Source of the DNA: Rhizobium sp. Q54
GTDB taxonomy: Bacteria > Pseudomonadota > Alphaproteobacteria > ATCC43930 > CGMCC-115725
Assembly (NCBI GenBank): GCA_945861155.1
Contig: CAMATN010000007.1
Location: forward strand, 1-64,000
DNA: 64,000 nt
Direction: 5' to 3'
The position numbers and the translations under genes are program-made. The notes below the pieces were generated by a model, which ran no database searches, was not told where the DNA came from, and saw nothing but the letters and a program-made list of their open reading frames with translations. Below, in pieces: positions 17,425-28,108 of the stretch (positions within the stretch are counted from its first letter, which is position 1; every line of letters begins with the position of its first letter).

Positions 17425-19353
17425 CTACGGCCGCCGCGCCTCGCTCGCCGGCACGAACTCGGTCAGAGCGGAAGCCAGGCGTTCGATCTCCGCGTCGAGC
17501 CGTCGAACATGAGCGGCGCCATCGTTGCGCAACTCGCTGGCCGTCAGGCGCTGGAGCGATGTCGCCAGCTCGCACAGCTGCGCGGCGCCGAGATGTCCGG
17601 CCGCGCGCTGCAGCGCGACGAGGCAGCGCGCGAAACCGGCGGCGTCGGCGGTCGCGACCGCCTCGTCGAGGCGTTCCATGATCTGTCTTGCGTCGGCGCG
17701 AAAGGTCTCGATGACCTCGCGCAAAAAGCCCGGGCCGCCGCCGAGAGCGCGCAACCCCTCGATCACCCTCGCGTCGACGGCGGGCGGCGCATCGGCGACA
17801 AAGCGGGGATGCGCGGCGATCGGCGTGATCCGCTCCGGCTCCTGGCGGATGCGCTCGCCCCCGGCAGGAAAGCGCTCAGGCAGGCGCTCTGGAAGGCGCT
17901 CTGGAAGGCGCTCTGGCGGCCGTGCGGATTGTCGCTCGGGGGCCGGGGGCGACGTCTCGCCGAGGCGCGGCAGCGCACGCTCCGCGTCGAGCGGCAGTGC
18001 GTAAAGCGCGTTCGCCAGCAGCTGCTCGGTCACCGGCGCCGGGATGAAGCCGTCGAGTTCGCCCTCTTCGACCTCGACGAGATTGGCGACCTGCCCGGCC
18101 TCGGCGATCAGGAGGACGAACGGCGCCTCGCCGCCGAGCCGCGCCGCATGGTGCGCCAGACCGAGCGCCGACAGCAATCTGTCGCGGCCGTCGACGATCA
18201 CGATCGGCCGCTGGGTCTCGCCCGGACGGGCGAGCTCGGCCAGGGCTTCGTCGGTGTCGCCGGGCCAACGCGGCTCGGCATTCCACGCCGCGAGCGGTTC
18301 CGCCAGGTCGCGGGCAAGTTCGTCGTCCTCGGTCACGATCAGCACCGCGCGGCGCTTCAGATCGAGGATAGGCCCGGGCGCTCCCGCCTCGATCGCCAGG
18401 GACAGCGTAACCGTGAGCCGGGTGCGTTGGCCGGCCAGCTTCTCGATGGCGAACGTGCCGTCGGCCAACGCTACCAACCGCTGGACCAGCCGCAGCGCCA
18501 GCGGAACCCCGTTGGCGGCCAGATCCGCCGCTCGGTGCGCGCCGAGGCCGTCGACGCGGATTTTGAGCCGGACCCGCCGCACGTCGCATCCGCCGGAATG
18601 GGAATCGATCGTCATGCGCACCGTCGCCGCCTGCGCGACCGCGACCGCGACCGCGTGATCGGCGAGGCTGCTCAGAACCCGGGCGACAACCTGGGCATGA
18701 CCGCGCAGCCGATAGGGCAAGCGCGGATCGACCCGCCAGCGCAGCGCCACGCCGGTCTTGCCGGAATTTTCCCGCACCGGCGCCAGGCTATGCGTGATCA
18801 AGGCGCGCAGATCGAAGGTCTCCAGCGGCGGGGCAAACGTCCCGGCTTCGAGCGCCGCGTAATCGAGAACATCCTGGATCGGCGGGGCGGCGGCTCGCGG
18901 CGAGCGCGCCGTCGCCATCGGACCGCGCAACGTGTCGGCGATCAGACGCAGCGTGCGTTGCCATTCGGCCGCGGCCTGCGCCGCGTCGGCGCGCGCCGAC
19001 GCGATCCCGCGGATCGCCCCGGCGACAAAGGCCGGAAGGACCGCGAGGGCGAGGATCAGACCGACCGCGAGGAATGGCTGCTGGCGCCAGATTTCGGTCG
19101 ACAGCACGACCGCGGTAAAGCTGAGGATGCTGATGATCGCAACGGTCAGCAGCGCACCGAGGCCAAAGCGCAGCCCGGCATAGAAAATCGCCGCCAGGTA
19201 GAGCGGGTACCAACCGGCGGCATCGCTGCCGCCGAGGTGCAGGAACGCCGAGAACAGCACGATGTCGAGCGCCGCAGCGCCGTAATACCGCATGGCGACG
19301 GGGCCGGCCACAACACCATCCAGAGCAGCATGGCCCAGCCGGCGACGAGCCAC
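17425..19353 (-). CDS. RpfC-like hybrid sensor, degenerate kinase/receiver/Hpt part (frameshifted from its N-terminus)
   Basis: This frame encodes the bulk of an RpfC-type hybrid sensor. Real similarity begins near MRYYGAAALDIV (about 19296), continuing the membrane segments (FLHLGGSDAAGWYPLYL, FYAGLRFG, then two more helices). Next come a HisKA-like helix, an ATPase-like domain, a receiver-like domain and an Hpt-like domain. The expected phospho-residues are missing: the H-box reads LIADTLRGPM (Asp for His), the N-box reads SSLADHA (Asp for Asn), the receiver ends in GFIPAPV (no KP lysine), and the Hpt box reads LVALQRAAGHLGA (Val for His). A linker carries tandem PERL units (near 17880-17925). 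It is probably a non-catalytic scaffold or a decaying gene. The N-terminal part is in another frame (19290-19793). Confidence 0.75.
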   Translation of the reverse strand: MARRRLGHAALDGVVAGPVAMRYYGAAALDIVLFSAFLHLGGSDAAGWYPLYLAAIFYAGLRFGLGALLTVAIISILSFTAVVLSTEIWRQQPFLAVGLILALAVLPAFVAGAIRGIASARADAAQAAAEWQRTLRLIADTLRGPMATARSPRAAAPPIQDVLDYAALEAGTFAPPLETFDLRALITHSLAPVRENSGKTGVALRWRVDPRLPYRLRGHAQVVARVLSSLADHAVAVAVAQAATVRMTIDSHSGGCDVRRVRLKIRVDGLGAHRAADLAANGVPLALRLVQRLVALADGTFAIEKLAGQRTRLTVTLSLAIEAGAPGPILDLKRRAVLIVTEDDELARDLAEPLAAWNAEPRWPGDTDEALAELARPGETQRPIVIVDGRDRLLSALGLAHHAARLGGEAPFVLLIAEAGQVANLVEVEEGELDGFIPAPVTEQLLANALYALPLDAERALPRLGETSPPAPERQSARPPERLPERLPERLPERFPAGGERIRQEPERITPIAAHPRFVADAPPAVDARVIEGLRALGGGPGFLREVIETFRADARQIMERLDEAVATADAAGFARCLVALQRAAGHLGAAQLCELATSLQRLTASELRNDGAAHVRRLDAEIERLASALTEFVPASEARRP

Positions 19354-19793
19354 GGCGCCGCGAGCGGCACGCTATGCGCCGCCGGGCCCTCGAACGGGGT
19401 CAGGGTCAGAGCGAAACCGAAGAGCAAGGTCGTGACGAGGATCCGCAGCACCGCCTGCTCGGCTTCGTAGCCCGCTTGTGCGGCGAGCCCGGCGATCCGG
19501 CGTGCACCCGCCAGCGCCGTCGCGACGCCGACCGAAGCCGGCGCCAGCACCAACAGCGCGACGAGCGCACTCGCGGCCAGCGGACGCCACAGCAGCGCGT
19601 TCGACGCTGCTATCAATGCGACCGCGATCGGCGAGACGATGGCGGCCACCGACAAGCCGAGCGCGGCCACGGCGATGCGCCAGCCGCACTCGTCAGGGGC
19701 CTTTACGTGGCTCGCGGCCACGGTTGCCGCGGCCGACCCGTCCTGGCCCCGCTGCGTTATCCAATCAAGCAGGTTTGTGGCGGGCGCGGGCAA
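19290..19793 (-). CDS. N-terminal membrane part of the RpfC-like sensor, separated by a frameshift
   Basis: The frame starting at 19793 gives about 168 residues with a soluble N-terminus, then hydrophobic helices (GWRIAVAALGLSVAAIVSP, ALLVLAPASVGVATALAGA, ILVTTLLFGFALTL, WLVAGWAMLLWMVLW). It then runs into the region where the next frame takes over (about 19290-19310) and continues as non-homologous sequence to a stop near 19146. Read together, the two frames give a normal five- or more-helix RpfC-like sensor domain, so a single-base indel has split one gene. The start lies 9 bp after the stop of the upstream histidine kinase, indicating one operon. Confidence 0.7.
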
Positions 19794-19802
19794 GCTGGAA
19801 CC

Positions 19803-21446
19803 CTAGGACTGCCCGGCCGCGCGGAGGCCGCCGCCGACCGAATCCGGCGCCGGCTGCGAGCGTTCGCGCTGAAAGGCCACGGTCACCGTCGTGCCCACGC
19901 CCTTTGTGCTGTGGATCGTCAGCACGCCGCCGTGCAGCTCGGTCAACCCGATCGTCAGCGGCAGACCGAGCCCGGTGCCGTCATGCTTGCGCGACCAGGC
20001 GCTGGCGACCTGGCCGAAGCGGGTCATCGCCAGCTTGACCTCGGCGGCGTCCATGCCGATCCCGTGATCGATAACCGCGATTGCCAGCGCCCCGCCGACA
20101 TTGCGCAGCACGATCTCGACCCGGCCGCCGGCATGGCTGAACTTGATCGCGTTGACCAACAGGTTGAGCACGATCTGCTTCAGCTTGCGGGAATCCGCCA
20201 GCAGCAGCGGGATCGCTCCCTCGCGCCGGATCGCGATGCGGATGTCGCTCGCGCGCGCCTTGGCCTCGGCGAGCTGGACCAGATCGGCGACGGTCTTGGC
20301 CGGGTCGATCACCTCCTCGGCCAGATCGAGCTTGCCGGCTTCGAGCCTCGACACGTCGAGGATATCGTTGATCAGGCCGAGCAGGTGTTCGGCGCTCGCC
20401 AGAATGTCGCGCGCGTAGCCGACATATTTCGGGGTTCCGATCGGCCCCAGCATCTCGCCCGCGATGACCTGGGAAAAGCCGATGACCGCGTTGAGCGGGG
20501 TGCGCAGCTCGTGGCTCATATTGGCGACGAACTCGGTCTTGCTGCGGTTGGCCAGCTCGGCCTGCTCCTTCGCCGCCAACAGATCGCACTCGGTGCGCTT
20601 GCGCTCGGTGATGTCGACGAAGACGGTGACCACCATCGCCTCCTCGCCGTCGCCGGCGTGGAACAGCGCCTTGCTGGTCAGCAGCACGCAGGAATTGCCG
20701 TCGCGATCGACGATCTCCTCCTCGGCCGAACTCGGCACCGCGGTGCCGGCGAGCAGACGCTCGTCGCCCTCCATCAGGATGCGCGCCAACGGTCCGCCAT
20801 GCGCCTCGACCGGCCGCTTGCCGTTCAATCGGCTCGCCGGCACCCCGACAAAGGACGCGAACAGCCGGTTGACGAGCAAATAGCGGCCGTCGGGACCGGT
20901 GACGCAGATCATCCGCGGCAGGACATCGATCAACCGGAGCAGCGTCTCGTAAGCCTGCCGCGCCGCCTCGGGATGGCGCCGGTCGGCCTCGACATGGGTC
21001 TCCTCGCCATGGGTCTCCTTGGCAGGCGTTTTCTCGGCAGGCGTTTTCTCGGCGTGAGGCGTCGCGCGCTGCCGCTGCAATTGGCGGCAAGCCCGGATGC
21101 GGAAATCGCGCTGGTCGATCGGGATCAGCAGATGGTCGGCGGCGCCGGCCGCGCGCGCCCGCTCGATGCAATCAAGATCCCGCTCGGATCCGACGAGAAT
21201 GACCGGCGCCTCGGCGCAACCGGGCTGCTTGCCCAAGCGCGCGACAAAATCCGCCGCCTCGCCCTGGGCGCTTACGGCCGCCAGCAGCACCAGATCGGGA
21301 CGATGCTGGGAACAATACGAAAGGGCGGGGATCTGATCGGCGAAGGTCTTCGCGATTGTTCCGACGCCGAGCGAGAGCGCCAAACGTTCGAGGATCTTCA
21401 GATTGGTGACGCTGTCATCGACGATGACTACAAGTTGCGACGACAC
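19803..21446 (-). CDS. Hybrid histidine kinase: pseudo-receiver, PAS, HisKA, HATPase
   Basis: A 547-residue cytoplasmic sensor kinase. Residues 1-128 are an RpfG-like receiver that keeps VVIVDDS but has Ala56 where the phospho-Asp should be (DLVLLAAV) and Ile108 in place of the conserved Lys. A Lys/Glu/Thr-rich linker with a tandem repeat (about 130-155; 15-bp units near 21020-21050) leads to a PAS domain (about 165-285, ending FVDITERKR). HisKA carries an intact H-box, NMSHELRTPLNAV with His312. The ATPase has N-, G1- and G2-type boxes (NLLVNAIKFS, DHGIGM, GTGLGL). The enzyme should autophosphorylate, while its own receiver should not accept phosphate. Start is GTG at 21444-21446. Confidence 0.9.
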   Translation of the reverse strand: MSSQLVVIVDDSVTNLKILERLALSLGVGTIAKTFADQIPALSYCSQHRPDLVLLAAVSAQGEAADFVARLGKQPGCAEAPVILVGSERDLDCIERARAAGAADHLLIPIDQRDFRIRACRQLQRQRATPHAEKTPAEKTPAKETHGEETHVEADRRHPEAARQAYETLLRLIDVLPRMICVTGPDGRYLLVNRLFASFVGVPASRLNGKRPVEAHGGPLARILMEGDERLLAGTAVPSSAEEEIVDRDGNSCVLLTSKALFHAGDGEEAMVVTVFVDITERKRTECDLLAAKEQAELANRSKTEFVANMSHELRTPLNAVIGFSQVIAGEMLGPIGTPKYVGYARDILASAEHLLGLINDILDVSRLEAGKLDLAEEVIDPAKTVADLVQLAEAKARASDIRIAIRREGAIPLLLADSRKLKQIVLNLLVNAIKFSHAGGRVEIVLRNVGGALAIAVIDHGIGMDAAEVKLAMTRFGQVASAWSRKHDGTGLGLPLTIGLTELHGGVLTIHSTKGVGTTVTVAFQRERSQPAPDSVGGGLRAAGQS

Positions 21447-26376: not shown

Positions 26377-27750
26377 TCACCGATCGGGGGGCTTGGCAAT
26401 CGCCGCGACGACGGCGCGCAGGCTCGCCGCCTCGTCGAGTTGCAGCAGCATGCGCTGCACATTGGCGACCTGCGCCGGAGGCAATGCGCGCGCGGCGCAA
26501 TTGGCGAATTTGGCGGCGAGGGCGGCGGCGGGAAGCGGGTTGTCGGGACCGCGGCCCAGAGCGCTGCCGACCCGGCGCGCGATCGTGCGCCCGTCATCGA
26601 ATGTAATGCGGATTTCGGCGCCGAGATGCTCGTCGCTGGACGCGTTCATCTCGGGATGCGGCGCGGCATGGATATGCCGCATCAGCGCGCGCGAAGCGGG
26701 GTCGCGAAAGGCTTCGCCCTCGAAATCCTCGAGCGCGATGCGGCCCTGCAACAAGGCGCGAGCCAGGCAGTATTGCACGCTGAACTTGGCGTCGAGCCCC
26801 GATTGCGGGTCGGGCCGGTCGGTATGGGCGAGCCGGCGCGGATGGGTCCAGGAATCGATGCGCGCGACCCGCGCGGGCGCGATCTCGTGCTCGGCGCGCA
26901 ATTGCAGCATCGCATCGACCGCCGGGTGGGTGCTGCCGCAGCACGGGTGCTGCTTGACCGCGAGCCCCGGCCGGACGATGTCATAGGGCTGGCCCCAGTC
27001 CTTGAGGATCGCCTCGGCGTCAAAATTGCCGGCGCCGTTGAAGACGAGCAGAAATCCCTGCTTGTGTTCAAGCGCTTCAGGGTTGGCGGTGAACCCCTCG
27101 CGGGCGAGTTGGGCGGCGAAAAGGCCGCTGCGCGCGGTGTGCCCGACATGCAGGGGCTTTGTCATCGTGCCGAAATTGGCCTTGATGCCGGAAGCCAGCG
27201 AGGCGGCGATCGCCAGCGCATGCGCCGTCTTCGCCCGGTCGAGCCGCATCAGGTGAGCGCAAGCCGCCGTCGCGCCGAACACGCCCAACGTCGCGGTCGG
27301 GTGCCAGCCCTTGTCGTAATGGTGGAAATTGACGCCGCGCGCGATCCGCGTCTCGGTCTCGAACCCGGCGACATAGGCCGCAATAAATTCGCGCCCGTTT
27401 GAGTCCAATGTCTCGGCCAACGCGAACAGGGCCGGCAGGATCGGCGCCGACGGATGGCCGCCCAATGAATTGCTGACATCGTCGAAATCGAGCGCGTGCG
27501 AGGCCGTGCCGTTGATCAGCGCGGCGTCGAGCGGCGCGGCGCGCCGGTCGGTGCCGAAAATCAGGCATTCGCCGGCGCTGTTGCCCGCCAGCACCCGTTC
27601 GACGATCTGCGCGCACGGCTCGCCGGCCCCGGCCAAGGTCACCCCGACCGTGTCGAGGATCGCCACCTTCGCCCAATCCACCGCCTCGGGCGGCAGATCG
27701 CTGAAGCTGATCGCGCCGATGCGCTCGGCGATGCCTTCGATGATGGTCAT
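26377..27750 (-). CDS. MmgE/PrpD family protein
   Basis: A 457-residue member of the MmgE/PrpD fold, which includes 2-methylcitrate dehydratase, cis-aconitate decarboxylase and iminodisuccinate epimerase. Typical segments: AILDTVGVTLAGAGEP, NGTASHALDFDDV near residues 80-95, GWHPTATLGVFGATAACAHL, HVGHTARSGLFAAQLA, and KQHPCCGSTHPAVDAM. The reaction cannot be assigned from these shared motifs. ATG 27748-27750 is the family-like start; the frame is open upstream for another 66 codons and there encodes coiled-coil heptads that probably belong to the preceding small gene. Same direction as the thiolase and the small coiled-coil gene upstream. Confidence 0.87.
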   Translation of the reverse strand: MTIIEGIAERIGAISFSDLPPEAVDWAKVAILDTVGVTLAGAGEPCAQIVERVLAGNSAGECLIFGTDRRAAPLDAALINGTASHALDFDDVSNSLGGHPSAPILPALFALAETLDSNGREFIAAYVAGFETETRIARGVNFHHYDKGWHPTATLGVFGATAACAHLMRLDRAKTAHALAIAASLASGIKANFGTMTKPLHVGHTARSGLFAAQLAREGFTANPEALEHKQGFLLVFNGAGNFDAEAILKDWGQPYDIVRPGLAVKQHPCCGSTHPAVDAMLQLRAEHEIAPARVARIDSWTHPRRLAHTDRPDPQSGLDAKFSVQYCLARALLQGRIALEDFEGEAFRDPASRALMRHIHAAPHPEMNASSDEHLGAEIRITFDDGRTIARRVGSALGRGPDNPLPAAALAAKFANCAARALPPAQVANVQRMLLQLDEAASLRAVVAAIAKPPDR

Positions 27751-27811
27751 GTTATCGGCCTTGCAGCAGTTGCTCCACCCTACGCGATCGGCGTTGCGCG
27801 TGAGGTGCGTT

Positions 27812-28108
27812 TCAAGGCTGGTCGTTCTTGCGTCCAGCGAACCGATCCGCTCGTCCAGATGACCGATTCGTTCGTCCAGATGACCGATCCGCGCTGAGTA
27901 GCGTTTCGATTCGATCGAAACGTCCCGACATCCTTCGTTCGAATCCATCCAATTGGCTGCGTAACGTAGCGCTGAGATTGTCGGACAGCGAACGAATGTT
28001 ACGGCGGTCGTTCTCGGCGTTGTGGTTCATCTCGCGTAAATCGCTGTGGATCTCCTCTAGCTGCCGCGCCAGCAGCTGCAGATTGATCGGCTCAGCCATC
28101 GTCGGCAT
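27812..28108 (-). CDS. Small coiled-coil protein, probably frameshifted
   Basis: A 98-residue protein of unknown function, mostly helical: NLQLLARQLEEIHSDLREMNHNAEND..., then LSDNLSATLRSQLDGFERRMSGRFDRIETLL. After that the frame turns into SGRTNRSSGRADRF, unlike the rest. Another frame of the same DNA gives perfect heptads (RIGHLDE repeated, then RIGSLDA, TSLETHL) from three 21-bp tandem units at about 27835-27897, which suggests that an indel at about 27895 changed the C-terminus. Its ATG (28106-28108) overlaps the thiolase stop in TGATG, so it is coupled to that gene. Confidence 0.55.
   Translation of the reverse strand: MPTMAEPINLQLLARQLEEIHSDLREMNHNAENDRRNIRSLSDNLSATLRSQLDGFERRMSGRFDRIETLLSADRSSGRTNRSSGRADRFAGRKNDQP

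Follow-up and report, generated by a model that had tools for sequence, protein, structure and literature searches.

Two neighbouring signalling genes raise the question of whether a pair of proteins between which no phosphate path is left is kept for another kind of communication or is simply falling into disuse. The pair lies at 17425-21446 on the minus strand of the window (the whole stretch of 64,000 nucleotides that was analysed), where a live sensor kinase of the REC-PAS-HisKA-HATPase type adjoins, on its downstream side, a membrane hybrid kinase without phosphate-handling residues. A preliminary description likened the two proteins to RpfC and RpfG, noted the loss of most phospho-accepting residues, and proposed either a phosphorylation-independent scaffold or a recently decayed system. 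That observation was largely right, and several of its residue, receiver and ORF details are corrected below. In this study, the pair was found to be conserved, with its phosphate chemistry lost coordinately on both sides, and this loss is not a recent decay of the genus.

Results

The live kinase and its pseudo-receiver

The kinase gene P0002 (19803-21446) encodes a protein of 547 aa that matched the Pfam models Response_reg, PAS_4, HisKA and HATPase_c above their cutoffs. The kinase core is intact, in agreement with the preliminary description: the HisKA domain (20334-20543; PF00512, 1.5e-17) carries the invariant His312, and the HATPase_c domain (19866-20195; PF02518, 1.4e-22) also keeps its N-box (NLLVNAIKF). 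Among the top NCBIfam models, the best match was PdhS (206 bits), with DivJ at 174 bits, all of them far below the equivalog cutoffs. The PAS domain is located at 20592-20969 (PF08448, 1.3e-15), and two short 15-bp tandem repeats at 20987-21053 make up a charged linker between it and the receiver.

The N-terminal receiver of the kinase (21063-21446) is a pseudo-receiver, in that it combines a predicted receiver fold (AlphaFold2 pLDDT about 86-94) with the absence of catalytic residues. The reported Ala56 in place of Asp (codon 21279-21281) is present, Thr86 is replaced by Gly, the K-3 aromatic residue is His105, and there is no Lys. Residue 108 is indeed Ile; its reading as a derived loss of Lys was rejected, because every canonical relative outside the genus already has Ser (once Thr) at this position, so that the loss of Lys is ancestral and Ile108 is no sign of decay.

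The pseudo-hybrid

The 642-aa ORF P0001 (17425-19353) had been taken for the whole hybrid. It is the remainder of the protein, and its GTG start is internal to it; the N-terminal membrane part lies in another frame as P0003 (19300-19793). The two ORFs are collinear in one frame of the orthologue G001, in which P0003 aligns with residues 30-166 and P0001 matches residues 167-757. In sister species the hybrid is a single open frame of at least 758 aa, and the five other full copies of the same genus are unbroken; therefore, the hybrid of this assembly is frameshifted at approximately 19,290-19,306, as judged by comparing frames with five same-genus single-frame orthologues. Since the break near 19,300 is confined to this assembly, it reflects either a frameshift of recent origin or a fault of assembly, so that the hybrid may be lost in this species or may be interrupted only by a sequencing error. 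A programmed frameshift at this place seems unlikely, as no slippery motif was seen by eye and the break is absent in the sisters. A crude scan gave about 7-9 hydrophobic segments in the hybrid, and a search of the window's genome for a canonical copy with a membrane domain elsewhere found none.

In the DHp/CA region (18364-18981), which was delimited by its residues and a predicted DHp/CA-like fold, the H-box His is replaced by Asp140 of P0001 (codon 18934-18936; LIA[D]TLRGPM), and in the Hpt region (17461-17775) the His is replaced by Val579 (codon 17617-17619; CL[V]ALQ), both as originally reported. The N-box Asn is likewise lost; its replacement is His (SLAD[H]AVA), the Asp that had been named as the substitute being one residue earlier, and the G1 and G2 boxes are gone too. 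Pfam returned no HisKA match in the pseudo-hybrid, HATPase_c at only 0.0074, under the cutoff, and Hpt just above the cutoff (PF01627, 1.6e-05). The receiver that had been described as lacking its Lys is degenerate; by alignment and predicted structure, it is REC1 (17989-18348), which occupies the ShkA-Rec1 position and is a pseudo-receiver throughout the family, canonical relatives included (VDGR motif). The true phospho-receiver, REC2 (DINMP...TKPVE in relatives), is absent from the window's hybrid gene, and a low-confidence linker of RLPE repeats (17794-17988; 12-bp tandem repeat; pLDDT mostly at about 40 or lower) stands in its place. Elsewhere in the window, a 21-bp tandem repeat at 27841-27892 encodes IGHLDER repeats near the N-terminus of the ORF 26377-27948.

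The AlphaFold2 model of the pseudo-hybrid (mean pLDDT 70.9, low in the linker) showed recognisable DHp/CA-like, REC1 and Hpt regions, the last as a helical bundle mostly at pLDDT 80-94. The structural matches of the model were ShkA (6qrj, the best), RetS, GacS and DivL, with low whole-length TM-scores because the matches span the kinase region only. The hybrid therefore joins a predicted histidine kinase fold with the absence of the phospho-accepting His (Asp140 here; no H-box His in 6/6 genus members), as in a pseudo-histidine kinase.

Relatives and synteny

Orthologues of the kinase were found in 23 genomes of the family, this one included, and the kinase-hybrid pair is syntenic through the family. 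Other genera keep canonical pairs, which were also found in other families of the same class, and the membrane hybrid occurs only in genomes that also carry the kinase orthologue. Kinase and hybrid are adjacent in most relatives, but in G013 they are separated by an additional ORF (L043:6574-7227; 218 aa) that is predicted to encode a membrane protein. A contig search with P0001 alone gave no matches, and an alignment-based contig search gave 12 named MAG loci, including Stellaceae and Rhodospirillales bins. The named records for the loci all come from alphaproteobacterial metagenome assemblies, and one of the canonical relatives carries the label Stellaceae. The window's genus consists of uncultured soil bacteria.

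The hybrid is donor-dead in all six same-genus species covering the sites, without H-box His, ATP-binding boxes or phospho-receiver, and Asp56 of the kinase receiver is changed to Ala or Ser in 7/7 genus copies found. The Hpt His is retained in G002 and G007 and is replaced by Val, Val, Arg and Gln in G000, G001, G006 and G004, respectively. Published base rates are 0.9% for HisKA domains without His, 0.9% for Hpt domains without His and 2.0% for receivers without Asp (PMC12632262); against these rates, the pseudo-domain losses, common to 6/6 genus members, exceed chance. Three genus members carry a second hybrid that is likewise His-less and keeps REC2 (G007b, G004b and G002b). By eye, these second hybrids (L038, L039 and L040, respectively) are situated near fliD-like, fliS-like (G002b) and XRE-type regulator genes.

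Selection and constraint

A codon model in IQ-TREE over six species gave an omega of about 0.12 for the degenerate hybrid (membrane 0.13, DHp/CA 0.09, REC1 0.15 and Hpt 0.10) and of 0.06-0.14 for canonical domains, values that are rough because synonymous and third positions are near saturation. In every domain, codon positions 1 and 2 are more identical than position 3. These codon comparisons indicate purifying selection on the degenerate hybrid, so that the pseudo-histidine kinase is a retained one, with the frameshift in this assembly as a caveat. From the canonical to the degenerate set, mean identity changed from 0.68 to 0.40 in DHp/CA, from 0.57 to 0.50 in Hpt and from 0.44 to 0.47 in REC1.

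The omega of the kinase receiver rose from 0.061 in canonical relatives to 0.175 here, and that of the PAS domain and kinase core is 0.09-0.11. Receiver positions 12, 56, 86, 103 and 105 are changed genus-wide, and Ser12, Ala103 and His105 are fixed across the clade. The best conserved parts of the receiver are alpha1 (identity 0.78) and beta5 (0.76), and the b2a2, b3 and b4 loops and a3 have 0.38-0.53.

Order of the losses

In the hybrid tree, the genus, its second copies and two sister-genus species (G017 and G038) form one clade (100/100), all members of which are without the H-box His. In the kinase tree, the Asp-less receivers form one clade (100/100) whose sister is the donor-dead, Asp-keeping g11 species. 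In G017 and G038, the hybrid is dead and the receiver Asp is kept. The simplest history is that the donor died first and the acceptor later. The genome of G014, which is complete and belongs to another genus, encodes the kinase without any membrane hybrid, and the kinase receiver has Asn for Asp and Ile for Thr; this acceptor loss is independent of that in the window's genus, and G014 represents a second lineage in which the hybrid gene and the acceptor Asp were both lost. Moreover, the receiver Asp is kept in 33/33 genomes that have a hybrid with an intact H-box beside the kinase (11 in the family and 22 outside; three of these hybrids end at a contig edge). Loss of the hybrid and loss of the acceptor are not strictly coupled, because the two dead-hybrid sister-genus species keep the Asp, as do at least two kinases with no neighbouring hybrid (G236x and G387x).

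Discussion

The pair resembles RpfC/RpfG of Xanthomonas DSF signalling in placing a membrane hybrid kinase with receiver and Hpt next to a protein that begins with a receiver, and the REC2 of the hybrid-family profile matches the RpfC receiver of known structure (3m6m). However, the hybrid here is not an RpfC, that is, a TM-HisKA-HATPase-REC-Hpt protein with working residues, since REC2 is absent and the H-box and Hpt His are lost; it also has an extra pseudo-receiver, and no phosphate path is left in the genus. Nor is the partner an RpfG, a receiver joined to an HD-GYP phosphodiesterase, as it ends in PAS-HisKA-HATPase. DivL of Caulobacter, which acts with CckA, is a pseudo-histidine kinase controlling a live kinase without phosphotransfer (match at 4q20), although it has Tyr in place of His where the hybrid here has Asp. 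DivL is not known to contain a receiver or an Hpt domain, nor to share an operon with a partner kinase whose receiver has decayed. In RetS-GacS of Pseudomonas, a hybrid sensor touches a second kinase directly and thereby modulates it (matches 6dk7, 6dk8 and 7n0e); the members of that pair are not known to be linked, or to have lost donor and acceptor residues together. ShkA of Caulobacter shares the order DHp-CA-pseudo-REC1-REC2 and, as we understand it, has neither Hpt nor membrane domain. Unlike the hybrid here, ShkA acts as a kinase, and its REC2 is functional (PMC7010744).

That both proteins are under strong selection, although the hybrid and the receiver of the live kinase no longer have phosphate-passing residues, suggests that they communicate by contact instead of phosphate. 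We consider it rather likely that the locus began as a phosphorelay pair, that its phosphate path was taken apart, and that the two proteins persist as a phosphate-independent control of the live kinase. The ancestor, as judged from the canonical relatives, would have been a multi-pass RpfC-like hybrid (DHp-CA-pseudoREC1-REC2-Hpt) serving as a membrane signal sensor, which presumably phosphorylated the N-terminal receiver of the adjoining REC-PAS-HisKA kinase and thereby tuned it. The phospho-His and the ATP-binding boxes of the hybrid disappeared in the ancestor of the genus and its sister genus; in the window's genus, REC2 was deleted and the kinase receiver lost its Asp, its Thr and the aromatic residue of Y-T coupling. 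The membrane, REC1 and Hpt parts of the hybrid and alpha1/beta5 of the receiver have remained constrained. The pseudo-Hpt or the pseudo-DHp may still dock on the pseudo-receiver, so that membrane signals might be passed to the live DivJ/PdhS-like kinase purely through conformational change, in the manner of DivL-CckA or RetS-GacS, and the output of the kinase may perhaps be DivK or a similar regulator. Phosphate-independent kinase control has precedents in DivL (PMC5361649) and RetS (PMC4866733).

The preliminary description had also allowed for recent decay, and had held that canonical orthologues, together with relaxed selection in this copy, would make it a simple pseudogene. The same-genus orthologues share the losses, and only other genera are canonical. 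For the genus, recent decay is contradicted by losses common to all members, deep well-supported branches, long frames, predicted folds and the low omega, and a recent pseudogene of a canonical gene was rejected by the residue tables, the trees and omega. A decaying system, in which the hybrid is losing its function, is already a pseudogene here through the frameshift, and the relay was lost under relaxed selection, would account for the frameshift in this assembly, for the loss of the Hpt His more than once and for the faster evolution of the receiver. We nevertheless regard it as unlikely, given the unbroken hybrid frames of the five remaining same-genus genomes that have the full gene, the hybrid omega of about 0.12, the predicted folded domains, a branch for the window copy (0.35) that is shorter than that of its sister (0.52), and the clade-wide fixation of Ser12, Ala103 and His105.

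Two further explanations were considered. In the first, which has a precedent in DivL (PMC5361649), the pseudo-hybrid would recognise a response regulator in its phosphorylated state and report this to the live kinase, signals then flowing from the regulator to the pseudokinase. In its favour, both DivL and RetS rank near the top of the structural and profile matches, and the window's genome has a DivK-like gene (75% identity). However, the nearest relatives of the hybrid resemble donors to a receiver and not readers, and we consider this account, with its putative regulator, improbable. Alternatively, the pseudo-hybrid could be kept mainly for small-molecule binding by REC1, relayed to the partner, in the way that ShkA binds c-di-GMP (PMC7010744); REC1 lies in the Rec1 position of ShkA, which is the top structural match, and its conservation holds among the degenerate hybrids (0.47). 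The likeness to ShkA is one of Rec1 position and structure, ShkA itself having a c-di-GMP-binding Tyr and linker motif, and a putative ligand sensor of this kind seems very improbable.

The phosphorylation-independent reading of the pair fits the data. A more specific proposal is put forward tentatively, as possible with somewhat less than even confidence: the two ends of the phosphorelay, donor and then acceptor, were dismantled in order while the proteins stayed paired, leaving purely allosteric control with Ser12, Ala103 and His105 in a new interface. No papers describing such a paired co-loss were found among open-access texts, subscription literature being outside the scope of that search. 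How pseudo-receivers switch without phosphate has been named as a major unknown (PMC12632262). In this family the neighbour of the pseudo-receiver is evident, the phosphate chemistry was lost in a definite order, and outgroup pairs are still intact, so that the question can be tested by setting close homologues that have the chemistry against others that lack it.
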